Shown piece by piece: positions 10,396-51,300 of a stretch of DNA of 64,000 nucleotides. Source of the stretch: Tetracentron sinense (taxonomy: Eukaryota > Streptophyta > Magnoliopsida > Trochodendrales > Trochodendraceae); assembly GCA_015143295.1 (NCBI GenBank), contig CM026557.1, positions 28,677,760 through 28,741,759 on the forward strand, written 5' to 3'. The notes under the pieces were generated by a model. The model was not told where the DNA came from. It worked only from the letters and a program-made list of their open reading frames with translations, and searched no databases. Numbering within the stretch: the first letter of the stretch is position 1; each line of letters begins with the position of its first letter. The position numbers were made by a program, and so were the translations under genes.

Positions 10396-10417
10396 ATTGT
10401 TATAAACGATTTTACCC

Positions 10418-10990
10418 AGTGTAGTCAAGGCGTCTAGGCGATGCCTAGGCGATTAGCCCCGGCTAGGCGAGGCGTTGCCTAGGCGTGGCCTAGGCGATAA
10501 ATTTAATATAAATATATATATAATTATATATATATCACGTATATATATAACATCAAAAAGATCAAAACTCCACACCCACATTCCACAAAAACATAAAATA
10601 AAAAGTCTATTACAAGTATTCATCACATAACCAAAGACATGTTAACATAGGGGAGTATTAAACACTTCAAAATCTGGGCAAAATACCCAAATTTGTGTCG
10701 TCCATGTATAATATTAGGCAGAGCCCCCTACAATTGCCCGGGGGGGTGGCAGGGGGGGCAGCGCCCCCTTGCGAGCGTCGAAAACGATATTTTTAGTGAA
10801 AAAAACGATTTAGAATTTTATTACTACTTCATTACATGTTTTTATATTTTTATTTATTTATTGGGAATTTTTGGATTTTTTTTAAGCAAAAAAAAAAAAA
10901 AAAAAAAATTTTTTTTATAGGATCGCCCGCCTAGAGGGGCGCCTAGGCGACGCAGGCCCAAAGTCGCCTAGGCGACGCCTTGACTACACT
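10418..10990. mobile_element. Mutator-like MITE with perfect 10-bp target duplication
   Basis: The ends are AGTGTAGTCAAGGCGTC and GACGCCTTGACTACACT, a 17-bp inverted repeat, followed inward by repeated CGCCTAGGCG motifs. The flanks are identical: GATTTTACCC at 10408-10417 and 10991-11000. A 9-11 bp duplication is typical of Mutator-like elements. The 573-bp interior has an A/T homopolymer pair and a G/C-rich block but no transposase, so it is non-autonomous. The 75-residue ORF inside is fortuitous. Confidence 0.88.
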
Positions 10991-11000
10991 GATTTTACCC

Positions 11001-24300: not shown

Positions 24301-27300
24301 GTGCACCTCCATAGTCATATCCATATGGGTCATACTATTAAGCTTAAATAACTAAAAATATACTTGGACTATATTTTTCTTGTTGAAAATTAGAACTCTT
24401 CCGGTCAACCGATTGACCAGCCTAAAATACACAACATAATGAAATTTGAAGTTGATTGGCCTATTATTAAGCTTAAAAACTAAAACTGGTAAAAATATAC
24501 ACCTTGGTTGCCACTTTTTTGTGGATGAATTCGCCCCTTGCGTTATATTTGAAGATTCTCACCACATTTGTTTTTTATTTTTGATGAAAAAACAAGGAAG
24601 AAAAAAACAATCCTAAAATATATCACATGTTGGTTGAAATTTCCCAATATCGACTGACATATTGCAAGTTTTATATTTGAAAAACTCAATCCCTTGTTGA
24701 GATGATGCGATATTTGTGATAATTGAGCAATATATTAACAATATTCTATAAAAAGATGAACACTAGGGATTGATATATCCATCATTTGGTTGTGTCGGAT
24801 GATGATGTGGTGTAGGAATAGTTGCTGATGCATCTGGCTAGGAAAAAAATCTATACTAATCATCTTTGAAACTTATAATGGATGTAGTAATGATGTTATC
24901 TTCTTGCTGAATTTTCACTACAATGAGAATTACCATTTTTATAGGTTTAAAGCTGGTACTGTTGCCGCGCTTTATTAGTACCACCCATGATCTGAAATAT
25001 CAGTATTTATCAGGTGTATCAGTCTGATATGTACCAGTATTTCAGTAACCCGTTACAATGATACACAATATTAGTTAAATTCTATAGGTATCGTATTGTA
25101 TTGGTGTGTACTGTGAGTATCGAACCGACATTGTACGGTACATACCGATATAGTATGATAGCCATTTTCTTAACTGCTTTTCGAAATTTTTTTTGGCTGA
25201 TAATGTACTGTATATGACCGATAATGTACTGATACTGTACAATATCGGTCGTGACGTCCTTAAAAGAAACGAACGTCCTAACCTGATTTTTGCATGTTTC
25301 AAAACCACTTTTTTCACAACATTTACTAAACAATTTCTAGGCTTAAAACAATGGCTCCATTGTCGATTTTAAGTTAAAAAATGAAGATTTGAATAGAAAG
25401 AGTTTCCCCAAAATTTTGAAGGTATGCACAATTTCACTGTTTTTAAATTCATGAAAAAAAGTTGTAATCAATCTAAAATGAGTAGATCTATTGATTTGAT
25501 GCAAAATCCATAGATCAAAACCCATTATTTTTTTTAGCAATCGACGATTTTACAATACTATTTTTTTTCAAAAATCTAAAATGCAAAAACTTCAATATTT
25601 CAAAAAATACATTTATTCTAGGGTTCAAAAATGAAATGGGTTAATTCTATATATGATCTACAAGATCAATGAACTAACCCTAATTTTGAATTTTTTAATT
25701 ACAAAAATAAAATTTTTAATTAATTAATATTTTTTCATGTGTAGTGCATTGAAACAAGTATACATAGCTTAAATTTCCAACTTTGAAATGTTATATAGTA
25801 ATGATCATTGTTTCTTTCTATATAGGTTTGAGATGACGCCAAAGAAAGAGAAAGGTAAACTTCGTGTCAGAGATATAGGGTGACAATATGGGAAGCCGGT
25901 AGATGGGTCGAGGTACCTAATAAAATGTAATTTATGTGAATATCTTTCTCAATGTGGTGGGATCACTCTACTGAAAGAACATTTGGCGGTATAAGGGTAA
26001 ATATCTACCGTTGCCCTAAGTGCCCTCGATAGATTAACCTAGCAATGATGACACATTTGAAGGAGAAGAAGGTTGAGAAGTAATTAGCGAAGGCGGGAAG
26101 GTAGGCCTTAAGACTAAGGTATCGGTATAAACTTCGGTCGCTAAGGAAGTTGACACGTTTCAAAGAAGTTTAAGGAATCTAAAGAAGTTACGTAAAAATT
26201 AAAGAAATCTAGGAAATTGTAAAGAAACATTGGAAATCTAAGACAAAACTTTAAAGATTCAATACTTAAGCATAAATACAGATCTAGAATTCATTATATT
26301 ACTAGATGCAAGCATGTAGAGTATCAAATGTGAGAATTATGTTAAGTGACATGTGTTGTCTACTTGTCTGAGCTGTAATTTTTTCTTGATATTTCTTATA
26401 TTGTTAAAATTTTTTAACTATATTTTATTCTCTTTGTCAGGTGAAGGGGATATGTAGCCATTTTATTCTCTTTATTTTTCAATGATTATTCATGTTAATT
26501 ATTTTAGAAACCTGAAAAATTTATGAATGCACATTAAAGTTGATAAATAATTGAAATTTAGCAATTTAGTTTCTAAACCTATTTCTATATGCAATTGACG
26601 AGCTCAATGTATATTATTTAGAATTATTAACTATTTATAATAGTAATAAAATATTGTTAAAATTCATAACTAAATAAAATATCCATGAATTTCACATATA
26701 ATACTTAAAATAAAAGGGCCTTGTATTAAAATTTTATCGATTTTTTAAAAAGCATTTTGTATAATATAAATCAATATTAAATTTTAGCACATTAATATTT
26801 TGTCATATAATATATTTTTTTTTATATAACACATCATTTTTAGAATTTTTTGTACTAAAAATATTATGTTAACTTATGAATTAACTAACCGATTAGTCAA
26901 AGTGTTAGTATTTCAAAAAAAGCCCTTATGGCCATAATCTTATTACATATAAAACATGCATAGTTAAATAATATTTAATTTATGAAAAATACTATTAGCA
27001 AATTATTTAATATTTTAATATTACTAAAAAGCCCTTATGGGCATAATTATATTACATAGATAACAAGTGAAAGGGAAAAGACATAAGGATATTATTATTT
27101 TTTGATCGGTAATCAAGCAATAGTATAAATAGAGGAAACAAAGAGATCAAATACATGAGGGCAAAAGAAGAAGGAAGAGTTTACAAGCACATAAACTCAA
27201 ACGCATCAAAACAAACATGACAAGCATGCCTTCTAGGCCCTCCTACTTCTGAAGATCAAAAATCAATACAATATCGCCCTGATTTACTCCCCATCAGTTC

Positions 27301-30300
27301 GGAGCTCCGCCCATTCTAATACAACTGACTAGATGCGCTCACAAATGTGAGAGTGGGACAATAAAATATTCTCAAAGACTCTGAGGTTCCTCTCTTTCTA
27401 TATCATCTATGACACGACGCCAGTGAGAACCGGACCTCGCGAGCCCCCCGCTACACTTACCTGAGGCCAACTAGATAAGCAGTTGTGAAAGGAAGAGGGA
27501 AAGACCCATCCACCCTTATGCGGGAGAGGAAAAAGCCCTATAAACCAAACACAATAAGACAGTGTAAGAGCAAATGATCCACGAACTCTTCCGCTTGGAG
27601 GCATAAGTAACACCGGTTAGCCAACCTTCACCCTCTATGTTGTAAATGATCACATATGAGGATCTTATTCAATGATGCATTCCAGAGAAAGAAAGAAACC
27701 TTAAAAGGAATCCTTGGATTCCATACCATCCGATGAGGAAACAGACCCAAGAGTATTGGACCAAGAGACTATAAAAGTGATCTTACTAAGAATCGACCAT
27801 GGTCGCTTTCAGATCACCCGATTATCCCTAACATCCGGACACGACGAAAATTGGCTAAGGTGATCCAACAGGCACATTATTTCATCAATTTCCCAATCAT
27901 TCAACCAACGACGCAACTTCAGACCCCACACCACCCCCTCTCCCTGTCACTTGAAGTAATCCCTTACTAGAGCCCCTCTATCTGTAACTAATGAAAAGAT
28001 GTGCTCAAAATCATCCTGGAGCCTGTTGGCGCCACACCACACATCTTTCCAAAATCTTACCTCTAAACCATTCCCCACTAGAAACTGAAACTTAGGCACT
28101 ACCAAATTGGCTTTTGCCATGATACCCTTCCAAAACCCCATGCCATAAGGACCTCTAACCTCGATCGGGACCCAATACGAAGACTCCATATTTGGCCACA
28201 AGCACCACCCGCCACAAACTAGCCCTCTCCGCCCCAAATCTCCTAATCCATTTTCCTAGTAAGGCCTTATTGACTTGAGCCAAGGACTTGAGATTTAGCC
28301 CGCCGGCTTCCTTTGCCCGACAACATTGTTTCCAAGCCACCAGGTGATACTTGAAAATATCCACCTTCTCGTTCCAGAGAAACTCCCTCTGCATTCTCTC
28401 AAGGAACACGACAACAGACTTAGGTATGGTTAGGATGGACTCATAGAATGTCGAGAGACTATTGAGGGTGCTATGGATGAGGGTTAACTTTCCTCCCTTG
28501 GATAGAAAATGCGACTTCTACCCCGACAACCGTTTCGCAAACCGATCTAACATTGGCACCCAAACCGCCTTGGCTTTGAATCCGGACCTCAACGGCATAC
28601 CCAAGTATACGGATGGAAGGGAGCTCACTCTACATCCCAAACAGACGGCAAGCTGATCTATGTCGGGGACCTCACCTACATACTATCTCGGACTTAGTGA
28701 GGTTGACTCGCAAACTGGACACCGCTTCAAAGCACCTAAGGAGACACCTAAGATTGAGTAACTGGTGACTTGATGCTTTGCAAAAAATCAGGGTATTGTC
28801 TGCAAACTGAAGGTGGGAAATACGCAACTGATCATGGCCAATCGCAAATCCCTCAAATACCAGCCCCTCCGCTCTAGACAACATTCGGCTAAGAGCTTTC
28901 GAGACGATATCAAAGAGGAACGGTGAGAGCGGGTCGCCCTGCCATAGGCCCCTAGAGCTCGGGAAACAGCCCACCGAACCCCCGTTGAGAATAATAGAGA
29001 AAGAGACAGAGGAGATCATAGTAACCAAGTACGAGTTGGTTTGAACAGAATAGGTTTTGAGGTTTAGATCTAGGGTTTTAAGGTCTAGGGTTTTGATAAA
29101 GAGGAGGAAGAAGAATAAATTAGGGAAAGATTTGACAAAGTTAATTTTTCTCTCCCATACTTTATTATTTATACTTCACTAATGGTATACTATTCGTATA
29201 TAAGAGTTATTAATAGTATACCCAACATACAATATATAAGAGTAAACTAAAATACATAAGAATAAAGCCTATAAGGCCTTATTCAACACTTCCCCTTAAG
29301 TTGGTGCGTAGATATCACTCATACCCAACTTGCCAACAATATTTCGAAATTGAGTACTCCCAAGACCTTTAGTTAAGACATTAGCCAATTGATTTTCAGA
29401 TTTCACAAACGGAGTACAAATGTAACCTGCCTTCAATTTCTCCTTGATGAAATGACAATCTACCTCAATATGTTTGGTTCGGTCATACTGCACTGGATTA
29501 TGAGCAATACTAATATCTGCTTTATTATCACAAAATAAGCTCATAGGACCTTCAGTGGGAAGTCCAATCTCACTCATGAGTAATTGAAGTCAGAGCAGTT
29601 CACACACCCTGTGTGCCATGACTCTAAACTCTGTCTCTGCATTGGATCTAGTAACCACATTCTGTTTCTTCTCCATGTGACAAGATTACCTCCAACAAAA
29701 AACAATACCCTGAAGTGGAGCGCCTATCAGAAACTGAGCCAACCCAATCTGCATCGGTGTAGGCTTTAACCTGTAAGTTCCCATTGCAGGTACACAACAA
29801 GCCTTTCCCAGGAGACAACTTTAAGTAGTGGAAAATTCTATTTACCGCATCCAAGTGTCCAGTAGTTGGTGAATGCAAAAACTGGTTGACTACACTGACA
29901 GCATAAGCAATGCCTAGTCTGGTAAGAGATAAATATATAAGTCTACCAACAAGTCTTTGGTACCTCTCAGCATCCAACAAACGTTTCCCACTGTCTTCAC
30001 TAAGTTTATGATTCGAGTCTATGTGTGTATCAAATGGCTTACAACCCGTCATGCATGTCTCCTCAAGAAGATCAAGTACATGCTTGCACTGAAAGACAAA
30101 GATGCCCTTTTTAGACTTGACAACTTCAATCCCAAGAAAGTACTTCAGAAGGCCAAGATCTTTGATCTCAAATTGTTTTGCTAACTTGCTTTTTAGTGAC
30201 TCTATCTCATCCATATCATCACATGTTACCACAATGTCATCCACATAAGCAATTAAGATAGTCACATTATGATGAGATCGTTTGAGGAACAATGTGTAGT

Positions 30301-33300
30301 CTGCTTGACTTTTTCTGTAACCATTTTTCACCATGACATTGCGAAATCGCTCAAACCACGCTCTGGTAGACTAATTCAGTCCATACAGTGTTTTCTTCAG
30401 TTTGCACACTTTCCCTTCATCTAATGGACATTTGAAACTAGGAGGTAACATGTACACCTCTTCCTCCAAATCTCCATGAAGAAATGCATTCTTTACATCA
30501 AGTTGAAACAAAGGCCAATCCTGATTGGCTGCAAGAGATAGGACACCCAAACGGCTTCTTTCCTTTTAGTAAGGTATCCATATCCCAAGTAGTATTTTTT
30601 CAAGAGCACACATCTCTTCTTTCATAGCCCTTTTCCATTCTGCTTGGGACAGTTTATCTGCTAAACTGCGAGAGATAGAAACAGAGACAAAGCCAAGGCA
30701 AAAGAGTGATAGAGGAAGACAAAGCATGATAGGAAACAAATTTCGAAACAGGATGTAGAGTACATGATCTAGTACATTTCCTAAGAGCAATTAGAACTTC
30801 AGAATCAACAATGTCAGGACTAGAAAGAATAATGTTTCCTGGATTGGAAGAGGTCTCTTGGTGGGGCTCATGAGGATCTTTCTGCCTTCGCCTGTACACT
30901 TGCAATTCCTTAACCGAGGGTTCACACTCCTCACACTGTCCATCATCACCCTCAGACATTCGGTGATCACTGTTAGGGGGGATATAGGATAGGTAGAGAA
31001 GATATCCTTTCACTTATGCTCTCCCTTTGTAGAGATGTCTTCGGGGCAGAAAAATAGAGTAGACTCAAAAAAGGTAACATCCATAGAAACAAAGGACCGA
31101 TGAGAAGGGGGATGATAACATTTATACCCCTTCTGAGTAGGAGCATACCCAAGAAAAATACATCGAAGAGCCTTAGGATCGAGCTTCGTGCGATTAGAAC
31201 GAGCTATATGCACAAAAAAAATACAACCAAAGATCCGTGGGGCCATCGGAAACAAAGGAACAAAGGAGACAACAGGGAAACTGGAGACTGAAACTCCAAA
31301 TTACGGGAAGACATTCAATTAATTAAGAATGCAGCAATCAAGACATCAAACCAGAAAGATTTAGGCACATTCATAACAAACATAAGAGAACGAGTGACTT
31401 CTAATAAAATGTCGATTTTTTCGCTCAGGCACACCATTTTCTTGAGGAGTACCAGCACAGGAAGACTGATGAATGATGCCATGAGAATAAAAAAACTGGC
31501 TAAACTAGCAGATACATATATTCCCCCCATTGTCAGAGCAAAGTAATTTAATCAATGCATTAAACTGAGTAGCAATCAATTTGTGAAAAGAGAGGAAAAC
31601 AGTGCCAACTTCACCTTTAAATTTTAACATATAAACCCACGTAGTACAGGAGTAATCATCCACAAAGGTAACGAAGTACTTAAACCCACAAGAAGAACCC
31701 ACACATCGGAATGCACAAGAGAAAATGGTGAATTGCATTTATTACCACTATAGAATAAAAGGTATCAATCTCATCTCTAGATAGACCAGGACTATCCAAA
31801 GGTGCAGTAGTAGGTACCGAGGCAGTGAAGGTAACAGAGTGTGCACTTTAGCTCCCCCCAAATCGTCCACTGCCAGAAGGGCCCTGTGGAGGAGGGCGAT
31901 CATGTAAGTCCCAACAAGTATCCCTCATATGACGGGTACACCCACATTGATCACACTTAAGTTTATCTAGAGCATCAGTAGAAGAACCGGAGGATCCAAA
32001 CCGACCACCTCCTCGGCCACGGCCACCACTCCTACCTCCTCTCTGGAATGAGGTTAATGCAGATCTATCAAGTGTGGGAGGTTGGAACATAGCACTCCGA
32101 CGACGCTCCTCACGATATGCGTATGTGTATACCTCAGTGGGAGGTGGGACTGGATCTTTGCCAATAATTTGAACCTGTACTTGCTCATAATCCATATTCA
32201 ACCCGGCAAGTAACTCAAATACGCGGTTCTGTTCGACCAATTTCTTATACTCAGCTGCATCCTTGGGACACTTAGTCTTGAAGGTCTGATAGTTATCCAG
32301 CTCTTCCTGGAGACGACGAAGAGTGGAATAGTATGTGGGAATAGATATATCCTCCTGCTTTAGTTGTCAAATACTCTGACGTAACTCATAAACACGTGCA
32401 GTACCTCCAATCTCAGAATAGGTTTGTGTCACGACATCCCATATATTACGCGCATAAGGAAGAAATAAGTAAGCACTTTGATATCTGGCTACATAGAATG
32501 GAGAAGCCATGACATTACAATGACATTCTCAGCCTCTCACTTGGCATAGGCTAGATCTGTGGACTTGGGTGTGAGAATGGTACCATTCAAATAACCCATC
32601 TTACCCTTACCCTTAACAAACAACATAGTTGGTTGAGACCAAGCTAGGAAATTATTCCCATCCAACTTCATTGTAGTAATCAAGAGGTTTGGGGCATCAC
32701 TTGTAGGGACCCCAATATTACCTCTTCCTTACACATGGATACTAGAGGACTGACTCACCTCAGATTCATCCGCCATAATATTCAAACCAAGAAACAATCA
32801 GAAGTCACACAAATCTTCAACTTAGGGCTACACCATCCTAGAGGAACTCCCAAAGTAGGGTTTCACCACCTGTACCCACTCAATACTCAACCAAAACACA
32901 AAATAGGGTTCTGAAATATGAACAACAGCAACTTAGCACGTTGGTGGACATGCTATAGCCAACCAAAAATAGATTTCAGCACAATAGAAGATTTTTTGAA
33001 AAACAAAAAACCCCAAAACACAGTAAAGTAGGGTTTCACAACCCTATATTCAATTCCCTGAATTAATGAGAATGATACAAGCCACAAAAACAATAACCCA
33101 ACACCACATAAGGTTGCTCAGATCCCCACATCATTAGAGCAGATTTTTTTTTTTGACAAAAAAAATCTGATGAACAGTAAAAAAACGTGAATAGTATAGG
33201 GGAACAATCCTTGTTGAGTCTTCGATCCTTCTCCGATCGTAGTGAAATCTGTGGCAAACACTTAATAATTTTGATATGGATCAGTCAATACCAATTTGAA

Positions 33301-36300
33301 TCACCAAAAAATCCTCCAATCAATCACACGAAACAGAGTCCCAAATCTGTATTTTTTTTCGATTTTTTTCAAAGTTCATGAAAAATACCTTTGCAAGCTC
33401 CAAAAAATTACTACAATTCATGAAAAATCATGATCTATCAATTGGGAAGAAAATCCAGATCCATCATACTTGCTACAGTGTTTGTACGGTTGACATCAGC
33501 ATGACATCATGCTGACATCAGCACTGCTATAACACTCGACTGCTCCGCTGCCTGGTTCTTTTCCAAGCTCTGATACCAAGTTGGTTTGAACAAAATAGGT
33601 TTTAAGGTTTAGATCTAGGGTTTTAAGGTCTAGGGTTTTGAGAAAGAGGAAGAAGAAGAAATTAGGGAAAGATTAGAGAGAGTTAATTTGTCTCTCCCAT
33701 ACTTTAATATTTATATTCCACTAATGGTATACTATTAGTATTTAAAAGATGCTAATAGTATACCTAACATACAGTGTATAAGAATAAAATAAACACATAA
33801 GAACAAAGCCCATGAAGGCTTTATTCAACGCTACGGGTATAATATGGCAATGATCCATTTGGGAAGTACGGGTACTATGCGACAAAAACACGACAAAAGT
33901 ACGGGGAAATTAAAAAGTAAATAATAATTATATATAAATAAATATCATGATATTAACTAATAACAATCATTTAATACAGAATGCGTTTAACACGGTAAAA
34001 GTATGACAAAAATACCTGTATTGTACGCGTTTAATACGTAATTCGTGTATTAAACGAGTATTATACGGCGATACATGAATAACACGTAACACGACAAAAG
34101 TAAGAAGTTTTAAACGGCAACCCCCTCTAAAAGTATAATACGGGTGTTTGGTAACTATGGAGGAGATACACATCATGATCCACATCCTCCACTTTACCCC
34201 CAAAACCGATCCTCTGAAGTACATAATCCAAGAAGGTCCAATTAACGTGGTCATATGTTTTCTCAATGTCAACTTTACAGAGGATTCTAGGACACTTGGA
34301 TCTAATGTGCGCATCGAGGTATTCATTGGCTATCACGATCCCGTCTAGAATTTGTTGGCCCCCTCACAAATGCTCCCTGTTACGAGGAGATGATCGAGGC
34401 CATCACTCACTGAAGCCTGGCTGCCAAGACCTTTGATAGAATTTTGTGAATGCTGCCCACCAGGTTGATAGGACGAAAGTCCTAAAGGTCGACAACACCC
34501 TCCTTTTTGGGAATCAAAAATTCAACACCATAAAAGTGCTGTTGATCACTCTATCAAATTTTCCTGTAATGAAGAATTCCTTCATCACCTCCTAGAGGTC
34601 TTCCCCCACTATCGCCCAACATTCCCTATAGAACTCAATGGTGAACCCATCCGGCCCGGGAGCCTTATTCCCAGCTATCCCACGAATCACACCCAACACC
34701 TCCTCCTCCGAGAATGACCCTTGCATAGAGGCGCGCTGCTCGAGGGACAGGCCCCAAACAGACAGGCCCTCAAATTGGAGGCCATCCAGACTGGGACGTC
34801 AACTCTCCCTCTCATGATACAACTCCTTGTAGTAAGAGACGACACAATCCTCAATTTCCCTAGGCCCTCCCAAGTCACGTCCACCCTAAGTCTAGAGATG
34901 AAATTCCTTTTCTTGTTGAAATTTGCCATACAATGAAAGAATTATGAAAGAATTTGGTGTTTTGATCCACCTCTTTAAGCCACCTGATTCTCACCTTTTG
35001 TTTCCAACTGATCTCTTCTAGGGTGAGTGTAGACAAATATTTCATTTTCTTGCCTCTTTGACTCAGATTTCAGTATTTGTTAAGTTTTGTGAATCAGCTA
35101 ACCCCTCCAAGTTTGAGATCTTCCTAAGTAGCCCATCGAGTTTCACCCGAATGTTTCCAAACACCTCCTTATTCCAGACCTTCAATCTAGTTTTGAGGGC
35201 TTAAAAGTTGAGGCTGAATCTTATACTCGCTACCCTCACCCTCCTTCTGTCCTCCAAACCTCAGCCACAAGGTCCTAAAAACCCTCATCCTTGAGCCACA
35301 CATTTTCAAACTGAAAAGGGGAAATACCCCCTCTAAAGATCTCGGATTCTAACACTATAGGCACGTGATTGGAAATAGGCCGTAGGATAGAGGATTGAGT
35401 GAGGTTTGGAAAATGGGTCTCCCAACCAGGACTAACTAAAAATCTGTCCAGGCGACTTGCTATCGTGCTAGATACCGATTGGACCCAGGTAAACTGGGTC
35501 CTCCTAAGCGGATACTCGTTTAGTTCATGGCGATGAATAAACCTCCCGAATCTTTTCATCATAGAAGTAATCGCACTCCCCCCTTTTCTCTTTGTAGAGA
35601 ACCTGATATCCAAACACCAAGGTGTACCCATTTTACACTCACATCGTCTAATTCATTCCACATAACCATGTCATCAGACCCCCCCGAGGGTCTGTAGATC
35701 CCAGTAAAGACCCATCTCAAGTCATCTCCTACTAACCGATAAAGAATTGAGAGCGAATATGCCCCCTGTTATGACTCCAAGACCTCCACCTTGGCCTTAT
35801 CCCACATTAGTAAGATACCCCCTGATGCCCCCAGAGACGGAACATCTACCCAACCTAGGGCGACGACGCCCCAAATATCTCGGATATTAAACTCCTATGT
35901 GGCCTCAAGCTTGGTCTCTTGAAGGCACAAGATCAACGGTCTCTTTGTTGACACCAAGTGTTTGGCTACACGTCTTTTCTCCACTTGCCCCAACCCCTGA
36001 ATATTCCAGGAAATGATGGAGATTTCTACCATCGAGGAACCCGGTTACTGTTAGCCTTTAGGTTTTCAACCTAAGGTAACATCATTAATTTTGATGATAA
36101 CACAATAATAGAATGAGATTTGTGTTACTAACATGGTTTAAAATATCATCGATATTTCAGAAATATCGACGATATATATCTTTTTCGATGACTCCCGACA
36201 CATATATATCAGGTATTTTGGTTTTTACAATTTTTCGTAAATGTCGACCGATAAATCCAAAATATCGCAAGATATTTCAGAAATATCGATCGAAATTTAC

Positions 36301-39300
36301 AAATCACATAATGTTATTTTTTTTTTTACAATTTTTCGTAAATATCGATCGATATATCTGAAATATCGCACTATATTTTGGAAATATCAGTTGAAATTTA
36401 CGAATCAGAGATTGATTTTTACGATTTTTTTTTACAATTATTGATTTAATACAATGTCTTTTTATTTTAAGGATTATACTTGAATTCATGAATGTTTTAT
36501 TTAGTGATGAATTTTAATAATGTGCTATTACTAATATTATTTTTTTGAAAAGATTTATTTTATTAAAGAGAATAAAATGAATCTATATATCCCCTTCAAT
36601 TGACTAAGAGAATAAAAGTTAGTTAATTTTTTTTTGACAATATAGAGAACTATCCGGAAGAAATTATAATTCAATCAAGCAAAAAACGCATGTCACTTAA
36701 CTTGGAGATACCATTATTGATATATTAACTAATATATATGAAATTGATTGTATTTGAGTTAATTGTTATGCTTGATTGAGAAATGAATACAACTTTTTAT
36801 GTAAGTTACATCAATATTAGTGAATCATACATTGTCGTCAGCGTCAACGCATGTCTTTGGCCCCCCTTTCATTGCATATCTTATATACATTGATGTTTTT
36901 TTAATTTTTTTTTTGATTCTCAGATGTACATTAACATCTATTTCAGCATTTCCTCAAGTTTCATTAAAAAAATCCATGTTTTTCACTATTTTTTTCGATT
37001 TTTCTCTCCACGTGCAATATTGTTCCCGCGATATCGATATATCTTGCAATATATCCTCGATATATCTTTTTTCCATGGCTCGACATGACATGCAATATCG
37101 ACATTTAGAACCTTGCAAGTCGGATCATGTACAAGAAATGGAAGATCATGAAGCTTAAAGATGAAATCCAAGAAGATGATCAAGATAAAGAGGAATGAAC
37201 TCTCTAGGAAGGTTTAATGTTTTATATTTTTAGAGAGTGTCTTAGTAAAAGTCCTCAAAGTTTGGTTGATTGAATTGCTCAAAGCCTAGAATGACCATAG
37301 GAGCCTAATGACTAAATTGATTAATATTCTAAGGCCCTAGGACATTATAAAGAATGATCAAAATCATGTTAAAAGCAAGCCAAAAGGCGAAGGAAACCAT
37401 TCCCATCATTAAGGTCTTCAAAAGATGAGTTTTAAGTGAAAAACCAAAGGACTCGTCGACGAATCCATCGAGCCAACTTGAACTCGTTGACGAATGGGGT
37501 TACAGAAGCTACTATAACTTTCTAGCCTTGAACTCGTCGACGAATTCACAGAGTCCACTCCACTTAGACTCGTTGACGAATTCATGCGAGAAGAAGAATA
37601 TGCTGTAACGGCTAGTTTCATTCTCAATGTTCTTCCAACGGCCATAAAACCTCTTGGGCTATAAATAAGAGTGATTTATGAACTAAAAGAAGAACTTCAA
37701 TTCTTCTCATCATTCTATAACTCACTTTATCATTCTTTGATCAATTATTTGAGTTAAAAACCTAGAAAACCCAAAAGAGTCCGAATTAAGCTATTCGGAT
37801 CCATTTCTTTGAGAGACTCTTAGAGAGCGTGCAAGTGATCTATCAGCTCGTGTAAGGAGCAAATTTAGATTGTAAAAATACTTTTCAACAAGTGTGGAAG
37901 AAAGTCAAGAATTGGTGGATTCTTGCATTGAAGCGGTAGCTTCGAAGAAGTCAAGAGAATGTGTTCTCTTGCAAAGTCAGGTTTTATCCTTACTTGGAAA
38001 AGGATTGTGAAGGTGTGATTCTCACCCGGAAGAGAATTATAAAATGTTTGGACTTCACCCGTGAAGAAGTTTGTGCGAGTAAAATCGTGGTGAATGGTGA
38101 ATCCTCTAGCGGGTATAGCTTGAGGCGGGAACCTCGTGAACAAACTTTCTTGTGTTTGCAATCTCTATCTCTACTCTTTACTTTATTTGTTTTGCATTGT
38201 GTGTAGAATTGCTAAATTCTATTTCCTTTTAATTTGTTATAATTGAAATTTCGCTTAAGGAAATAGGAAGAAAATTTTATTTGCTATAGACCTTACTCAC
38301 CCACCCTCTAGGGTCCAAACCTTGGGCAACAATTGGTATCAGAGCCTAAGTCTCTATTTTTTAAAGATTTAATAATCTTAGAGAAAAAATAAAATGACAT
38401 ATACGTTTGCAACTATCATAGGATAAGGCCAATCAACCCTTAAACCTCCCTTGTTTGATGGACAAAACTATAATTATTTGAAAGTTAGAATGATGTATTT
38501 CATTCAAGCTTTAGATTATAAATGTTGGCAAGTAATTGTCAATGGTCCCCATATCCCCACTAAAAATATTAATGGTATTCAAATACCAAAGGATGAGGAT
38601 GAATGGACTCAAGCCGACATGAAATTTGTTCAAATCAATGCCAAAGTAATTAGTAATTTATATTGCGCATTGAGTGCACAAGAATTTAATAGAGTCTCGG
38701 CTTGTGACTCCTCAAAAGAAATTTGGGATAAGCTCCAAATTATTTATGAAGTGACAAACCAACTAAAAGAAGAAAAAATTAGCATACTTGTCCGTAAATA
38801 TGAAATGTTTAAAATGGAATAAAATGAACCCATTGCGCAAAATTTATTAATATTATTAATGAGCTAAAATCTCTTGAAAAGATTTATTCAAATGCAGAAA
38901 ATATAAGGAAAATCCTTCGATCTCTACCGAGGAACTGGGCTCCAAAAGTCACTGCCATCCAAGAAGCAAAGGACGTCATCAAGCTACCCATGGATGAGCT
39001 ACTTGGATCCCTCATGACTCACGAGGTGATAATGAAAAATCAAGAAAATGAGCCAACATCAATGAAGGGAAATGTTTTAAAGACCCCTCAAGAGAGTGAA
39101 GATGAGGAAAGTGATAAAAATGAGGAAATTGATCAATTGACAAGAAAATTCAAGAAGTTCTTGAAGCATAAGAAGAACTTAAAGAAAAGAGCTTATAAGA
39201 AGGAATTCATCAAACGGAAATCAAGCAAAGAGGAAGAACCCATTGTGTGCTAAAGGTGCAAAAAACCCGGTCATATCAAACCGGAGTGCTCCTTACTCAA

Positions 39301-42300
39301 GACAAACTAAACATACAAAAAGAGGGCAATGAAAGCTACATGAGATGAATCCGACGAAAGTGGATCGGATACGAGCTCTAATGATGGCGAAGAAGCCAAT
39401 CTATGCCTCATGGCCAATAAGGATGAGGTAAATTCTTCCCAGGATGAATCTCTTTCATTTGGAGAATTAAGAGAAGCATTTGATGATCTATATAGTGAAT
39501 GCAAAAAATTAGCTTCCAAGAATAAAAAGCTTAAAAAGGAAAATTCATCTATTTCAAATGAAATGAATTTTTGCTAAATGAGAATGATAAATGTTTAAAA
39601 GAAAATGAAGATTTGATAAAGAAAAAAGAAGAAAGTGCATCAAGGCCACTAGTTCAAACCAATAAATGCAATGAATGTGAAATTCTAAAAGCTAAAGTTG
39701 AAGACTTGTCAAAAATTGTAACTAAATTTACAAATGGTAAAAAGACATTAGATACTATGTTCGGAAATCAAAAATGTATATTTGATAAGGCCACTCTTGG
39801 CTATAACCAACTCAAGAATCAAAAGAACTTTCAAAACTTTTTCAACTCATCAACTTCAAGTACTCAAAATAAAATCATTGGAAATAAAAAGGTTAAGCTG
39901 ATATGGGTTCCCAAGGGACCAATCCATTCAAAAGATAACCTAGTTGGACCCAAGAAGGTTTGGGTACCAAAGGGTGTTACCTAAACTTGTGTAGTAGGTT
40001 TCACCTTAAAAAGGAAATATACTTAAAGATCAACTTAAATGATTTCCTTATATGATTAAAGCATGATTTGTATTGAAAATTAATTTGAATGGCTAAATGC
40101 TTGATCATATTTGATGGATGCTTGATATGCTCAAATATGTATTTGATATGATTATTGAGTGCTGAGCATAAATTGATTTATGATTATTAAGTTTACTTTG
40201 ATGATTGATACTTATTGGATGCTTATGATGCCTAATGTGTATCTATTATGATTTGTTATATATATATTATACTCAATGCTTATTGATTGATATTTATTGA
40301 AGATGAAATGTTGGATGTGTTGAATTTTGTAAGAATAGTGGCTTGTATGTATATATGTTTGATGATAATTGGATGATCTATTATACTATTTATTTGAAAT
40401 GTATTTGATGATTAATTTGGATGAATGCTCATGAAATGGATAATGGTTGAAATGATTCATTGCACATTGTTCAACTGAGCGGCGTTGTAAGCCTTTGCTA
40501 TCCGTACCGGCTATTACAGAGTAATTACCTAACAAGCTCAGGACTTAGAACAATATTTGTTCACTATTCTTTGATGATCTTTGTGAAAATGGTTGTTGGT
40601 ATCATGTGCTTTGATTGAAAATGATGTAAATTGGTATCATTTGATTATAATGAATGTGTTGGTACTTGGTATCATGTACTGAAATATCAAAGGGAGAAAT
40701 ATGATAATGGAATGTATTATCTAAATCCCTAAGATGTCTAATTAAAATTGAATATATGTGCTTATAAAAGACATATTCAAATTGGTTTCAAATTGCTTGT
40801 AATTGACTTAATCAAAATGAATTAAAAATGGTTTCATGAACTAATGAATGATTTATATAAACTATATGCAATATGAATTGAATTCAAATCTTATTTTAAT
40901 GCATATGTTTAGGAGGAACTTACCTAAAAAAGTAATTGAATTTATATACTAAGAGGAGCTTTTTTCCCATTCCATTCTATTATTATGTCATCATCAAAAA
41001 GGGGAAGATTGTTAACCTTTAAGTTTTTAACCTAAGGTAACATCATTAATTTTGATGATAACACAATAATAGAATGAGATTTATGTTACTAATGCTTTTA
41101 TTGAGTTTAAATGTAATTTAATTTAAAAAGAGCATTGGCAAGCCATTTAAGGAAAAAACATTAAAATGACACTATCTACAAAGAAGGATCATGCTCAAGT
41201 CAAAGCAAGTCAAGATAGATCAAGATGAAGTTATTGAAGATCATACCCAAAGTTCAAGTCGGATCATGAATAAGAAATGGAAGATCATGAAGCTTAAAGA
41301 TGAAATCCAAGAAGATGGTCAAGATCAAGAGGAATGAAGACTCTCTAGGAAGGTTTAATGTTTTATATTTTTAGAGAGTGTTTTGGAACTTAATGTAAAA
41401 GTCTTCAAAGTTTGGTTGATTGAATTGCTCAAAGCCTAGAATGACCATAGGAGTCTAAGGACTATATTGATTAATATTCTAAGGCCCTAGGACATTATAA
41501 AGAATGATCAAAATCATGTTAAAGGCAAACCAAAAGACCAAGGAAACCATTCCTATCATTAAGGTCTTCAAAAGATGAGTTTTAAGTGAAAAACCAAAGG
41601 ACTCGTCGACGAATCCATCGAGCCAACTTGAACTCAAATGGGGTTACAGAAGCTACTGTAATTTTCTGGCCTTGAACTCGTCGACGAATTCACAGAGTCC
41701 ACTCAGACTCGTCGATGAATTCATGCGGAAAGAAGAATATGCTAAGAAGAATATGCTGTAACGGCTAGTTTCATTCTCAATGTTCTTCCAACGGCTATAA
41801 AACCTCTTGGGCTATAAATAAGATTGATTTATGAACTAAAAGAAGAACTTCAATTCTTCCAATCATTCTATTGTTAGTCTTTAGGTTTTCAACCTAAGGT
41901 AACATTATTAATTTTGATGATAACACAATAATGCAATGAGAATTGTGTTACTAATGTTTCCTTTAAGTGTTTATTAAAAACAGTGTTCAAGAGCATTAAC
42001 AAAGCCATTCAAGCAAAAAGCATGAAAATGACACCATCTTCAAAGAAGATTCATCATCAAGTCAAAGCAAGTCAAGTTGGATTATATTGAAGATATTGAA
42101 GATCATACCCAAAGTCTAAGTCGGATCATGAAGACAGAGTCAAATCCAAGAAGATGATCAAGTTGAAGAATGGACTCTCCTAGAAGGTTTAATTATTTTA
42201 TATTTTTAGTGAGAGAGTTTAGCACTTATGTAAAGTCCTCAAAGTTTTGGTTGTTTGAATTGCTCAAAAGCCTAGAATGACCATAGGAGCCTAAGACAAA

Positions 42301-45300
42301 ATTGATTAATATTCTAAGGCCCTAAGACATCATTTGGAATGACCAAAAATATGATAAAGATAAGGCAAAAGACCAAAGAATTCATTCCCATCATTAAGGT
42401 CTATTTAAGATGAGATTTCAGAATAAAACAGGAAATTTTGTCGACGAAATTGAACTAAGAAATTTAATCTCATCGTCGAAATTGGCCGCAGTGCTACTAT
42501 TTTTTAATTTTGTCACAGTCTCGTCGACGAATTCAAACAGTATTTACAATCTCGTCGACGAATTCATGCGGGAACCAGAATACTTTGTAACAGCTAGTTT
42601 TCAACGACTAGTTTCGTTTTGGATGTTCCCCCGACGGTCATAAAACCTCTTGGGCTATAAAATGAGATGATTTACGAACAAAATGAGAACTCCAATACTT
42701 CCAATCATTCAATCAAAGACTTCAAAGCTTAGATTTCAAAATTAATTGAGTAAACTCTTGAATCTCAAAAAGAGTCCGAATTTGAGCTATTCAACTCCAT
42801 TATTTGAGAAACTCTTAGAGAGCTTGAAAGTGATCTATCAACTTGTTTTAGAAGCAAAATCAAATTATAAACATCACTCTTTGAAGTGTATGAGAAAATC
42901 AAGAATCGGTGGATTCTTGTCCTTAAAGCGGGGAGCTTTGTAAAGGTTTGGTCTCTACCCAGAAAATAGACTGAAGTCAAGAGAGGGGATTCTCTTGTAT
43001 TGTAATGGCTGGATCTTCACCTGTAAGAAGATTAGTGAAAGAGTAAATCGTGGGAAATCCTCTAGCGGGTATAGCTTGATGCGGGAACGTAGGCGGGTTT
43101 GCCGAACCTCGTGAACAAACTCCTTATGTTTGCATTCTCTAATTCTACTCTTTATTTATTGTCTTGAATGCTTGTGTAGAATTGCTAAATTACTTTTTCT
43201 TTTAATTTGTTAAAATTGAAATTCCGTTTAAGGAAATAGGAATTAATTTTATTTTGCTATAGACCCTATTCACCCCCTCTCTAGGGTTGAATCCTTGGGC
43301 AACATCTATAACTCACTTTATCAGCCTTTTTACACGTCACCCCTTAAAAAATGAATAGTTCGGGAACAATTCGGGCATTATTCGAGAACTTTGTTACTAT
43401 GCTCGTTGGTGATCAAAATCGCATATTGATGTCCATTTCCTCATTGGAAAGTGGTGGCCTTTCTCCACTAGATTGCATTAGAGAATAGTTTTCCACAACA
43501 GATAAGCACTTAACACTCACTTTATCCACCATATCCCTATTGTTTAGCTGGATAGGGTGGATACAATGAGAAGAGGGTTTAGGCGTACCTTCTAAGGGTA
43601 GAGGTGTAGGATCAGGCTGCTCACAAACTGTCCTCCCCCTAAATGGAGGTAGTGTTGATGTTGGGGTAGATTCCGTCACCGCCGTAGAGGGAGACCGAGT
43701 CTTTGATCCCCGTCCCGGCGTTACTTCCTCAAAACAGGTTGACCTCGGGGCCATGGGGAGGACTTACGACTACGACCATGCTTGGGGCGCTCGAACTTCA
43801 GTTCTCAACTAATGTAGTGAGCGCTAGAGAGTGACTTCGATCGTGCCAATCACACAACCTTCCACTAAATCTGTTGATTTTCTTCAAGGATCCACTGTCT
43901 TGTTGATTCACAGGAACACCAAGAACAATAGGGAAAAGAGAAAACTCTTTGCAATTTTATTCAAAACAAACTGTCTTTGTCCTGTGGCTTACAAATCTAT
44001 AAATACGATGCTAAATTAAGCAAAATACGGAAATTACTAAAAATGGTAAAAAGTGAACTAACCACAAAATCTACTATAATACTGAATACTAGAAGCATGC
44101 CAGAAGCGACGGTGTGCGATTCTGACTTCTAAAACAAAAGTTTCCCAAAATAGCAAGATTGCTGTTTTCGAGGCCTAAACGAGTGAATCTGGCCAAAAAG
44201 TGAAAAATCCATGGCAAAGCGATGGGTATTGAAGATCTCGACATTTCCAGTTAGCCATATAAATTTTGCGCAATTCCGACTCCGAGGCTCATGATTTCTA
44301 CTAGAGCTTTTTGCCTTTCGTTCCATGATTTCTACTAGAGCTTTTATGCCTTTCGTTTGGATTGTTGACGATCCAACAATTCCATGAAATTCTCTGCCAC
44401 TTGCTCTGCATCATCAATTTTGCTTGGCTTAACAAATTGCTGGGGTTTGAACACACTATCTCTATATGATCCCATTCGATAGCCACCAACCTCGACGGCG
44501 AGGGCTGTGGCTCTACCTTCCTGCTCATCGACCCCGAAAGAGCTTGATCGGCTAGACTACAGTTTTCTTTTTGGATGCTTATTTGCAAGTTTGTAATGAA
44601 AGAGGCGAAGACAGTCTGTAACATATGTTACAGACTTCTCTGTTGACTTTGGTGAACTTCCACTAGAGTTCAGTATTTTTCTATTTTTTTCTGTTTCGGC
44701 CAAAGCTTCCCAAAATCCAGTATTTTTAATATACATGTGGGTTTCACTTCGGACACCACTGAAACCGACACATTTCAGCCGAAGTTGACCAAAATGTGTT
44801 GATTTTTGACACCTTGCTTAAGACTACTATGATGGGCGGTTCTAGAGGGCATGGTGGTGATAGTGATGATGATGAGATGTAACTTACTTAAAAAGAAGTC
44901 GGTGGAGAGTGGAGACAACCATGAGGTGTTCTAGACAGGAAGCATGAGAGAGGGAGGAGATGCAGAGATTTTATGCTAGCAGACATCTTTCGTGGTTCAC
45001 ACCATGAGGGGTTTCGAGCAAGGAGAGGAGAGGTTGGATACAGAGGACATAGAACATACATGAAGCATTTGATTGTTATGTTCTAGACGTGCTAAGGTTG
45101 AAGTCGAAGAAGGGTAGTGGTCTGAGCATTGAGATAGATGACCCTTACATGTATAGGGCGAATGAGGCATCTCAGAAGAAGTTGAAAGATATGTGGTCTA
45201 GAGGGAATGTAGTGAATGCAGTAAAGAGAGCGATTGTAAAGTTTTTCATTTTTAATCACATCCCAACTAACGCTCAACGTATCCGTACTATCAGATCATC

Positions 45301-48300
45301 ATTGATGAGACCTAGAGAGCAAGGCCAGGCATAAATGACCCACTCCTTACGAGATCACAGGTCCATTGCTTGATGAGGAGATTGCCGAGATTCACACTAT
45401 TGATTCTTTTAAAAAGATCTGAGATATATACGAGTGACTATTATGTGCGACGATTGGATCAGGCTGACGAGGTTGTCACTGATTAACTTTCTTGTTTAAT
45501 GTGACGGTAAAACAATATTTCACTCGATGCCTCCACTTTTATTGAGGATTGTGTATACCTCCATTAATTAATTGATGATGTGATAGAGGAGATTGGAGAG
45601 TGCATGTTGCAGGTTGTCACAGACAATCAGTCTTCGTGTAGAAAAGCCAGAGAACTGTTAATGATGAAGAGGAGCACCTGTATTGGACACCGTGTGCGGC
45701 TCATTGCATCGATATGATGTTAAAAGATTTTAAAGAGTAACATTTGGTATAGACCGTGGTTGAGCAAGCCTGAAATGTGATAAGTTATATATACAAGTAC
45801 AATTGGGTCGTGAATCTTATTGGAGAGCACACTACTAGAGAGCTACTATGGCCAGTGATCACTAATTCGCCTCTAACTTTATAGCTATTCATTTTTGCAT
45901 AGAAGACAGGGCTGAAGATGATGTTTACATTTGACAGGTGGCACGGGTACTCATATTGCCGCACTCTTGAAGCGATTAGGGTAGTTGACATTATCTGCAA
46001 CAACCAATTTTGGGACCAGCATGTCATGTAGTGGAGATACTCGAGCCCCGTTGTAAAGGTCCTGGAGATGTTTGGTGGGAGACAAGAGAGCCACTATGGG
46101 CTATGTGTGCGAGGGGATGAGACAGGCAAAGTTGGCTATCTGGGCTGCTGTCCCAAAGTCTCATAAGGGCTATTGTACAATTATAGACAAGAGGTGGGAT
46201 AAACACCTCTTACATGACATCCACGCAGCAGGTGACATTTCATTTATGATTTATTTGTTGTCATTTGTGATATTGAATACTAGTATTTGAACATTTGATT
46301 TATTTTAAAAAAAAATTGGCTAAAAGAATATATTATCTTAATCCCGTCTATTATTATTTGAATAACCTTGGCATTGATGAGTCATTATTGGGATTCTTGA
46401 AGAAAGTTGTACAAAAATTAGAGAAAGATCCATCTAAAGCTATTGTGGCACTCATGGAGGTAAAGACATAAATTTATATACTTGTGTTATTGGAGACTTT
46501 ATATACTTATACACTGGACACTTTACTTCTTTATATGTACTACAAAGTCTTTCGGGATGCCATGTATGGGTTGAATGATAAACAGATGGGAGTAGGAAGG
46601 AAAAAGACTGACCTAGGTAATTCAGTTTGTAATGAATACAATACTATATGATATACGGAGTAATAGGTTCTAATAGGATTTTTTTGTGTCATTCAGCTGA
46701 ATCATAAATGATGCTATATAGTATGAATGCCCCCTAATCTAAGAAAAATTGATATACAGATTCTATCCCAATAGCATCATCTAGCAGTTGCAAACGAAAT
46801 TGGAGCACCTTCTCCTTGATTCATTCAAAGCCTCGCAATCAGTTAAATTATGAGAAGTTGGAGTGATTGGTATATGCGCATTATAATATGAGATTATAAC
46901 TGAAGCAACTCACTAAGGATGCTTAGAGGGGTGATGCATCATACAATCTCATATACCTTAGCCACATATTTGATGAGGATGATCCATTGGATGAGTGGTT
47001 GGGTGATCCAGGAGAGCTAGTGTTGGATGAACTAGGAGATCCTTCTAGGCCTAATACATTTTTGGCGAGATGTGTGGATGAGTGTATGGTGGGATTAGTT
47101 GGAGCTGGGCCTAGCAAAGCAATACATAGTCAAACTGGGCATAACGGCGCCACTGGTATTAATTGGGCAGGACTAAGTGAGCTTAGGTCGAGTGAGGCTA
47201 GGACTAGTGGGGTCATGATGATGACGACGAGTTCGATGAATTGATGAGGACTTCAAGGATTCATATCAAGGAGGTTGAGAAAGTGGTTACAAATATTAGC
47301 GACAATGATGATGGCGATGATGACAACGATGATGGAGGGGATGTTAGGGGGACGTCAGATGGGCTGTCACATACACAATCAGAGGAGAGTCATGAGCAGG
47401 GGAGGCACGATATTGTATTTACAGAAGAACAATATTTCGACCGTGCCACCCAGGACACTAATATGTTGCGTGTATGCCCTATTGTGGTTATGGCTTATGA
47501 GAGCCAGACATACGAGCAACGGAGTCGTGGTATTGTGCGACAGGCTGGACGAGGCATTGATGACCTGATTTATAGGATGGATAGAGTGAGCATTGACCAG
47601 CATCATCATCCAAATATGAGAGTGCGTCTTTGCCCTCTTATTGTTATGGTTATGGTGCTCAGTCCTACTTATCAGGAGCTTATAGTCACGAAGCTCAGTC
47701 CTAGGCATTGAGTGATAGTTATGGAAACTCGAGTTTGTAGCTGACGTACGTACATATGTATTAGGCACGTTCTGTGCTTTCATGAGTTGGCTACAATATT
47801 GTCAATGTTTGGCTCGCTTATAATCCATCACTCTATTTAGTTTTTGAGCCCACAGAATATGAGTCGGTAGAAAGCTCAAGGTGGTATTGAGCTTACATCA
47901 TGTATGTAATTTACTTTATGGTTGTAATTCAATACTTTATTATTTATTTAATTGAAAGTAAGATTTTAACTATTCTTGGCTAAGTGACTATTGTTTGTAA
48001 TGTGGTATTGAGCTTGTATCGTGCATGTTACTGATCAAAAAAATAAAGCTTGTATCATGCATGTAATATACTTTATCACTCTATTCAGTTCTTGAGCCCA
48101 CAGAATATGAGTCGGTAGAAAGCTCAAGGTGGTATTGAGCTTACATCATGTATGTAATTTACTTTATGGTTGTAATTCAATACTTTATTATTTATTTCAT
48201 TGAATGTAAGATTTTAACTATTCTTGGCTAAGTGACTATTGTTTGTGTTTTTGTACCTGTTTATTAGCTTGGTCCCTTTTTGTAACTTCTTAACTCTCAT

Positions 48301-51300
48301 ATATATGGTTATAAATGTAGTTAGGGGCTTTCATGTAAATTTTTAGCTTATATTCGCATTAAAATAAGTTTAGTGTAAAGTATCCAAGTTTTTCCCTGCG
48401 AATTTAAGCATATCTTAATTTTTCCTAGCATATTGGCGCATATCCAACCGATACGCCGATACATATCCTAAAATCGACTTACCGATATGCATATCAATAT
48501 TGATATTTTTAACCATGGTACCACCCAAGAGGTTCTTTTAACTTTTGGCTATCCCAATTTTACATCTTATGGCTAGAACTTTATGTATCATATATCTCCT
48601 AAAGTTTTCGCGCAACATATCTGTCTATTTGCTGCTCCATATGCTGTCGAAAAGCTTTAACTAAGTGTCTGAGGCTTGATGTCAACTAATTTAAGCTTGT
48701 ATATGTGTGGAGGCATCAAAAGTTTCCTTCGCCATTGTAGCTTCATCAAAGATTTCAAATGTTCTGCTTTGATGCCAAGTTGAAGCAGGACAGATTCCTG
48801 GAATTGAGATGGCCAAGTGGTACAAAAGAAATTGACTATGAAAAGATAGGAGAAAGGGAGATTCACATCACAATTAGTAGTTAACTATAAAAAAAGAAAC
48901 TTGACAACTAAGAGCTCTAGTGAAAACACCACTCGTCTGAAGTACAAAAATAACAAAAAAATCCCCACTTAAAGATTCATATATAATGAGCTAATACCAT
49001 AGGGCTCCAAGAGAACAAGACTAATATATAAGGTAACCTAACTTCATAAAGAAAGAATTTCTATTGATGAAGCTAACTTAACTTCATAAGGTAACTTAAG
49101 CGCCAACAAAATACTTCCTATTACAATTAAGACTAATATTTAACTTTTGAACTTTCTGAACTTCTCTAGTCTTGTTAAAACTCCTTCACTTAGTTTCAAG
49201 AACTCCCTACCCTTTCCGGAACATGAGGAAAAATAACAAGGGGAACACATAAAAAACAATGGCATCCTTTATAACACCTTCCTTGGCCAATGTGTATAAT
49301 CTTATATGTCGCTCTAGGGCTCTAAGAGAACAAGATGTTCCTTTAGGTATCAAATTGCGAATTTCTTTGATCGCAGTAGAATACTAAGGTTTGATACCTC
49401 AGGTTTGTCGAAGAGAAGAATAGAAGAGAAAGAATAAGAGAGGAACAAGATTGGAATACGATTTGGAATTAATGTTTGGTTTGAAGAATAATCCCCTACC
49501 AAGTGAGGATTTCAAATATCTCAATACTCTTTCTACAGGCTCAATACATTCACGACATAGGCAATATCCAGATGAGTTAAGGATAAATAAATTAGTATGC
49601 CAACAAGTCTCTAAAACACCCCAATGTTGTCGCGCAACTCTCCACTATCATGGTCAAGCTTAACATTAGCTCCTATTGGTGTGACTACTGGTTTTGAATT
49701 GAGCTTCCTAATATCTTCTAATAAATCAAGGATATATTTCCTTGGAGATATGAAAATGCATTGTTTGAGTGGACAACTTCAATCCCAAAGAAATTCCTAA
49801 GAAGCCCTAGATCATTCATCTCAAATTCCTTAGCCAATAGGTCCTTGAGCTCTTGTATCTCTCTTGAATTATTTCCTATTACAACAATATTCTCTACATA
49901 TACTAGTAATGCAGTAGTTGTACTTTACAGATGCTTTGCAGATAGTGTGTGATTTGAATGACATTGCTTATTCTCGAACTTCTTAACAACTCCATTAAAC
50001 CTTTCAAGTTTCAAACCAGGCTCTAGGGCACTATTTAAAAATATAAATTGCCTTATTCAGACGGCAAACTTTACCTTTCTAATCCTAAACATAAACTTCG
50101 GAGAAAAGCCGCATACACTTTTTTCTTGGAGATTTTCATTAAAGGAACGCGTTCTTCATATCCAGTTGAAATAGTAGCCAAGAGTGATTTGCTGCTAGCT
50201 TGCTACTTAAAGAACAATCCTGACTGTATTCATCTTTGCCACGAGAGAAATGTTTCTTGATAGTCATCCCAAATGTCTGCTTGAATTTCTTAACCTTGCT
50301 TTATATGTGTCAACGGTATCATCTGCCTTATATTTCACTGTATACACTCACTTGCACCCAACTAGATTCTTGTCCCCGGGAGCATCAACAAGTCCCATGT
50401 ATGATTTTTAGTGAGTGCCTTTATTTTCTCCCACATAGATTCCTTCCACTTAGGGTGCTGCAATGCATTTGTTACATTAGATGGAATAGATACTGAAGAC
50501 AAAGATGAGACGTATACACGAATTGATGGAGAACTAGAATCATATGAAACGAAGATGAGAATTACAAGCATGTTTCCCCTTGCTTTAAGGCAATGGGAAC
50601 ATCAAGATTAGGAGTAATGGGTAAAGCTAAAGAATTACTTGGACTAAAAGCAACCTAATAAGTATGGTATGGGTCCACAGATGCTTAGAGGGTTGTTCTG
50701 TTGATGGAGGCTTCACTTTGGATCGTCTAAAATATGTTTTCAGTTCATTTTCCTCCTCTCCAGTATCATCAAGAGAGGACACCAACACTAAAGAAGTACT
50801 ATTGCAGTTAGCCAGAACTGGAAGGGGTATTCATTAACATTCTCACCCTGAAGAGAAACTCGAAAAAGAAAACGTCTTTGGAGATAAATCTCTTATATGT
50901 TAAGGGGTCAAATACTTTGTACTCTTTCTATATAGAGTAGGACCCCAGGAATAAACATTTGGTGAACTTTATAACTTGGAATGATTTGGACCTAAGATAT
51001 GAAAAGGCAGGTACAACCAAAGGCAGGAAGCAGTAGACTAAAGAGAGGACTATCAGGTTACAATAATTGATGAGGGGACTAGAAGCCCAAAACACGAGAG
51101 GGCATCCGGTTGATTAAATATGGTGTAGTAAGCACAACATCTGACCATTTTTTTTTATCCACTTTCATCTTAGAAGCACTGCGAGCAAACTTGAGCAAAT
51201 GCCTGTTTTTCTATTCCGCTACTTTATTTTGTTGGGGCATGTAAACATAGCTATTTTGATGAATAATGTCATAATCATCGAAGTAAGTTCTAAGTGTGCT

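Follow-up and report, generated by a model that had tools for sequence, protein, structure and literature searches.

Nested transposons in plants

Nested transposons of plants, together with tools for ordering them, have been published (PMC6911290, PMC2672092). These reports describe nested retrotransposon clusters, including the maize adh1 region (PMC2672092), in which younger elements lie inside older ones, the order of insertion is readable and long terminal repeats (LTRs) serve for dating, and the same features recur in the nest presented here. It lies in a stretch of 64,000 nucleotides from Tetracentron sinense (contig CM026557.1, positions 28,677,760 to 28,741,759 of the forward strand), hereafter the window, to which all coordinates refer. 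The nest is built around hAT-A, a degenerate hAT transposon at 24986-48517 on the plus strand, and comprises at least nine insertions, hAT-A included, on five transposon levels. Unlike in those clusters (PMC6911290, PMC2672092), its outer layers consist not of LTR elements but of DNA transposons and a long interspersed nuclear element (LINE), and the pile sits in the intron of a gene.

The outermost element resembles plant hATs with BED, DUF659 and hATC domains in its 8-bp target site duplication, its short inverted ends starting with CA and, probably, its domain order. It differs from them in its decayed coding capacity and in its length of 23.5 kb, which is owed solely to insertions. The nest is an ordinary plant nested-transposon history, of a known kind and unusually well resolved; it changes no general view and offers a clean worked example of how insertions can be ordered. 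Since genomic copies without the layer in question are available as a check for most layers, the order rests on more than similarity. The nest also illustrates how a plant intron can grow by tens of kilobases while the exons of the gene are still recognisable. A literature search turned up nothing on this locus, in itself weak evidence.

Boundaries of hAT-A

With its nested insertions hAT-A measures 23,532 bp; minus X, the element inserted into it, about 4.8 kb. It is recognised by its terminal inverted repeats, target site duplication, genomic copies and matches to DUF659 and hATC. The duplication, GTACCACC, is identical on both sides in 8 of 8 bases (24978-24985 and 48518-48525). The inverted ends begin with CATG (CATGATCTGAAATATCAG on the left and, as reverse complement, CATGGTTAAAAATATCAA on the right), and the short terminal inverted repeats starting with CA read CATGATCTGAAATATC and CATGGTTAAAAATATC. 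A scan of the 271 CATG sites in the whole window gave three pairs with an exact 8-bp flanking repeat, of which hAT-A had by far the best end match (19/26 bases, against 9 and 10). A chance test, in which an exact 8-bp repeat, identical first 4 bases of any letters and at least 17/23 end matches were demanded, scored the hAT-A ends at 17/23 and found three qualifying pairs in the real window; 4 of 60 first-order Markov windows had one such pair, none of them starting with CATG. Given these chance pairs, the pattern of ends and duplication is by itself only moderately surprising and suggestive, not proof, and the proof comes from genomic copies.

The window belongs to a genome of 1.16 Gb. For relatives of the LINE and of the outer element, a sample of twenty 10-kb stretches was read, of which 18 lay at round coordinates and two close to the window. 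A query of the 315 left-end bases of hAT-A returned nine genomic matches, one being the window itself and the other eight coming from seven places. Four of these eight start at query base 1-2 and four inside the query (at bases 55, 76, 244 and 251). Six copy regions of the family were fetched, and at the right end L011 aligns to 48517, L013 to 48519 and L014 to 48494, where CCATG follows directly (by eye). Duplications read by eye flank L014 (GTCCTTAC/GTCCTAAC, 7/8) and L011 (CGCGATTG/CGTGGTTG, 6/8); for L013 no clear duplication was seen by eye at the ends. Some copies therefore agree with hAT-A on both start and end within 2 bp, and hAT-A is confirmed as a real element with boundaries at 24986 and 48517. 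The initial annotation, made from the window sequence alone, had proposed exactly such CATG-ended inverted repeats 23.5 kb apart with an 8-bp duplication, and this is borne out by the duplication and by the genomic copies. Near the right end of hAT-A, 47819-47998 and 48067-48246 form a direct duplication of 180 bp with 96% identity.

The transposase of hAT-A

The decayed BED exon of hAT-A (25834-26114, plus strand) runs up to the insertion site of X and is collinear with open frames in two genomic copies, L009 and L010. On the far side of X follow the DUF659 part (45568-45737, plus strand; Pfam E 1.6e-5 and 7.6e-8, both below the curated cut-off, the latter with 32.6 bits against 34.7) and the hATC dimerisation part (46753-46917, plus strand; Pfam E 6.5e-4, 19.9 bits against a curated cut-off of 21.4), whose frame is interrupted by stops. 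Pfam zf-BED matched neither the BED-like piece of hAT-A nor that of L009, whose DUF659 match is weak (E 0.0041); above cut-off it was found only in a relative of hAT-A within the window, relative B (E 1.7e-4).

The two sides are joined directly in both copies. L009 aligns to 25040-26116 and continues immediately at 44823, and L010 aligns to 25970-26116 and continues immediately at 44824, with nothing between, so that the BED side and the DUF659 side belong to one transposase, as had been proposed from the window alone. An intron of this transposase had been proposed as the place of the insertions. This part of the proposal did not hold: an open frame of 151 residues in L009 spans the empty X site, and an open frame of L010 spans it too, which indicates that the site lies in a coding exon. 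Since both stops and X break its frame, hAT-A is predicted to be inert today.

The X layer

X occupies 26115-44816, split by the LINE, and the whole of this stretch is absent from L009 and L010. Its target site duplication, CTTAAGAC, is identical in 8 of 8 bases (26107-26114 and 44817-44824) and forms part of an exact 10-bp repeat, CTTAAGACTA, at 26107-26116 and 44817-44826. The ends read CAAGGTATTAAA and CATGGTATCAAA. With the left 224 bases as query, 40 of 1588 candidates were scored, and all 39 non-self matches, 88-92% identical, begin within query bases 2-6. With the right 257 bases (40 scored of 770 candidates), 30 of 39 non-self matches stop at 44816, with 73-78% identity. Three copies fetched from the 39 scored non-self matches (L041-L043) each measure about 1.07-1.11 kb and hold both X ends within one piece.

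Beside the 8/8 duplication of the window, an 8/8 duplication flanks L043 and one of 7/8 (by eye) flanks L041. For L042 the best repeat found by script comprises 11 exact bases, which we interpret as 4 bases of the element end and a duplication that an indel has blurred. CA-type inverted ends are common to many copies, and we regard X as a member of a non-autonomous hAT-type family of high copy number and about 1.1 kb in length. It shares with non-autonomous hAT miniature inverted-repeat transposable elements (MITEs) the 8-bp duplication, shortness before later insertions and the lack of a visible transposase, and differs from typical ones in its considerable length (about 1.1 kb). A search for the limits of a separate insertion in 26117-27096 gave no convincing candidates. 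A perfect palindrome of 24 bp lies within X at 44613-44636.

The LINE and the elements inside it

The L1-type LINE lies on the minus strand from 27097, where a T run marks its A-rich 3' end, to about 44540; the 5' limit is uncertain (about 44500-44600). It encodes a reverse transcriptase (RVT_1, E 1.3e-11) and, on the same strand, a weak Exo_endo_phos match below cut-off (E 0.014). A genomic copy on contig C4 shows the same 3' end and is collinear with 27092-29016, 34160-36036 and 43429-43800 of the window. To the right of the second of two solo LTRs, the LINE aligns weakly, with a score of 63 compared with 40 for the reverse complement. The X copies align to about 27100 and resume at 44541-44613, and their contiguity outside the LINE places the latter within X.

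The reverse transcriptase region of the LINE is interrupted at 29017-34159 by an element whose ends, CATAGTAACCAAG and CATAGTTACCAAA, mark it as a CATAG-ended hAT-type MITE. The target site duplication GAGGAGAT stands at 29009-29016 and 34160-34167, and L036 provides the empty site: it lacks 29017-34159 and aligns in two pieces that share exactly 8 bases. Like other non-autonomous hAT MITEs, this element has an 8-bp duplication, was short before later insertions and shows no transposase. Inside it, 17 bp from one end, lies copia-1 (29034-33830, minus strand), with LTRs at 29034-29290 and 33579-33830 and a target site duplication GTACG/CTACG (4/5, by eye). An RVT_2 match (E 3.7e-21), the LTR pair and the 4/5 duplication are features that it shares with Ty1/copia elements.

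A second element, copia-2 (36049-43323, plus strand), begins at 36049, adjoining the start of the LINE endonuclease, and shares an LTR pair and a copia-type gag with Ty1/copia. Its 5' LTR extends from 36049 to about 38331 and its 3' LTR from 41010 to a truncation at about 43323. The LINE flanks on both sides of copia-2 lie on one copy in L036; no target site duplication of copia-2 was found. Its 5' LTR harbours hAT-D (36132-37115), a small hAT with the ends CATGGTTTAAAATATC and CAAGGTTCTAAATGTC, beside which about 160 bp of the LTR are deleted; in its former shortness and its lack of a visible transposase hAT-D resembles non-autonomous hAT MITEs. The 3' LTR of copia-2 harbours solo LTR 1 (41872-43304, plus strand), with TCTAT on both sides. 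Fused to the truncated LTR is a repeat end fragment (43323-43398) that looks like part of a second CATAG-ended MITE; it matches L023 with 93.8% identity over 81 bp, the MITE end being read by eye.

Solo LTR 2 (43810-44413, minus strand) lies in the 5' part of the LINE, which is clear on its left side and weak on its right. A target site duplication, TCAAC/TCAAT (4/5), was read by eye. This LTR explains 43 of 45 search matches (40 scored of 1623 candidates), and in L039 a sequence resembling a primer site adjoins its edge (by eye).

Alternative explanations

Similar patterns of ends and duplications in 4 of 60 simulated windows might suggest that the halves of hAT-A come from different elements and that their outer ends are paired by chance. 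However, L009 and L010 carry both flanks of the X site contiguously, the short copies L011, L013 and L014 have both ends in a single element, and we consider such a pairing next to inconceivable. Very improbable, too, is the scheme of the initial annotation, in which the LINE sits directly in a transposase intron of the hAT and both copias sit directly in the LINE. What stands of it is that the LINE, with its L1-type reverse transcriptase, the two copias and the solo LTR all exist, that copia-2 lies in the LINE, as the single copy in L036 with both LINE flanks demonstrates, and that a solo LTR lies in the LTR of copia-2, flanked by TCTAT. The hosts of the LINE and of copia-1 do not stand. The insertion facing hAT-A bears X ends on both sides and the open frames of relatives span the site, while copia-1 lies within the MITE with its 8-bp duplication GAGGAGAT and its empty site in L036. 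That the 3' tail of the LINE might include the left part of X is countered by the X copies and by L036. A LINE inserted directly in hAT-A was rejected, its 3' end lying 980 bp inside X and three X copies lacking it. The same scheme had overlooked the X layer between hAT-A and the LINE, the truncation of the 3' LTR of copia-2, hAT-D, the second solo LTR and the MITE fragment.

As to X itself, its flanking repeat could be of 10 bp, CTTAAGACTA, in which case X would be a Mutator-like element. The exact 10-bp repeat in the window and the exact 11-bp repeat in L042 (CATGGATTTGA, the best found by script) agree with this. Yet in L043 an 8/8 duplication, GTGCTAAT, stands immediately outside the ends CAGGTATT and CATGGTAT, and in L041 TATACAAG/TATACGAG agree in 7/8 bases by eye, the script filter having listed none for this copy. 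Of the 11 bases in L042, the initial 4 are the CATG that terminates the element, and no significant long inverted repeat was found between the two ends of the insert. A Mutator-like X is therefore unlikely, and X is discussed below as a hAT-type element.

Order and age of the insertions

The history that we propose would begin with the insertion of hAT-A by cut-and-paste into an intron of LARP1, generating the 8-bp duplication. X, short and non-autonomous, would then have inserted in the transposase coding exon of hAT-A, and the LINE in X. The LINE would in turn have received the MITE, copia-2 and another LTR element; copia-1 would have gone into the MITE, hAT-D and an LTR element into the LTRs of copia-2. 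Recombination between LTRs would have shrunk two LTR elements to solo LTRs, and small deletions would have erased some junctions. These mechanisms are modelled on the known behaviour of the superfamilies concerned. The outer boundaries and most of the duplications were observed directly, as were copies lacking the layer in question for X, the LINE, the MITE, copia-2 and solo LTR 2.

Nesting gives the order hAT-A, X, LINE, and then the MITE and copia-2, with copia-1 after the MITE and with hAT-D and solo LTR 1 after copia-2; solo LTR 2 is placed only after the LINE. LTR divergence, for which the initial annotation had called, was computed as Kimura two-parameter (K2P) distance and amounts to 0.043 +/- 0.008 for copia-2 (676 sites) and 0.116 +/- 0.023 for copia-1 (253 sites). 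That copia-1 is probably the older of the two rests on this divergence and not on nesting. The rate used for grasses is 1.3e-8 per site per year and is not calibrated for this plant; at that borrowed rate copia-2 would be about 1.6 and copia-1 about 4.5 million years old. A nest of five levels, readable as an internal relative clock, had been proposed beforehand. The depth of five and the readability of the order hold, with other members; the nesting order proposed was partly wrong.

Taken as a whole, we regard this nested-insertion history as highly probable. Several observations weigh against it. Outside the window, recognisable duplications were read by eye in only two other copies of the hAT-A family (7/8 and 6/8), and L009 and L010 match the left end of hAT-A only from base 55 or 76. 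No empty site of hAT-A was seen in a paralogous intron, the 600 bases to the right of hAT-A matching only themselves genome-wide (1/1). A target site duplication was searched for and not found for the LINE, and none was seen for hAT-D. Copia-2 has lost its right junction, and L036 contains, between the copia-2 flanks, 368 bp of LINE without an aligned counterpart in the window. The two halves of X are unequal: L041-L043 show 85-86% identity over its left part and 68-73% over its right part, so that X may consist of two pieces or represent a hybrid subfamily. About 310 extra bases in the window (26611-26960) are not found in these copies, and next to the LINE some 190 bp of X are absent or diverged. 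The inequality of the halves lowered our confidence in the proposed history slightly, from near certainty to the level stated above.

It can be speculated, tentatively and with more doubt than conviction, that transposases of the CATGG-ended family of hAT-A mobilise X and hAT-D, which would be non-autonomous parasites. If this were true, the element that broke the transposase gene of hAT-A would have been moved by the enzyme of hAT-A or of a relative, and X would be a parasite that disabled its own helper. A link would be provided by hAT-D, which has ends of the hAT-A type and part of the X interior, inverted.

Genomic setting and other elements

Exons on the plus strand encoding a La domain (18221-18532; Pfam La, E 1.1e-12) and a HEAT (DM15) region (56595-56750; Pfam LARP1_HEAT, E 7.9e-23) lie on either side of hAT-A, which therefore appears to sit between exons of a LARP1 gene. 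The initial annotation had not named this gene.

Relative B of hAT-A extends on the minus strand from 977 to about 7438 and has a 7/8 duplication; the right ends of the two elements are homologous, and the left ends cannot be aligned. In it the BED part is fused to the part following hATC, and the middle is absent. It contains a solo LTR of 2.8 kb (1457-4237; target site duplication TAGAA) and, by similarity only, an apparent 5'-truncated LINE (about 5795-7231) flanked on both sides by GTAATAAAAA, whose open reading frame had no Pfam match. The 197 bp at 7242-7438 carry CATGGTTAAAA at both ends, with no matching duplication, and may be part of the left end of relative B or a damaged MITE.

A candidate hAT MITE of 575 bp at 10417-10991 has a perfect 8-bp duplication, ATTTTACC, and ends that match in 18/23 bases (CAGTGTAGTCAAGGCGTC). 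A DDE_Tnp_4 fragment lies at 14033-14311 (minus strand, E 1.5e-5), a domain of PIF/Harbinger elements. At 60722-62246, on the minus strand, a different hAT has long open frames, in which BED matched weakly and the RNase-H fold domain with E 2.8e-18.

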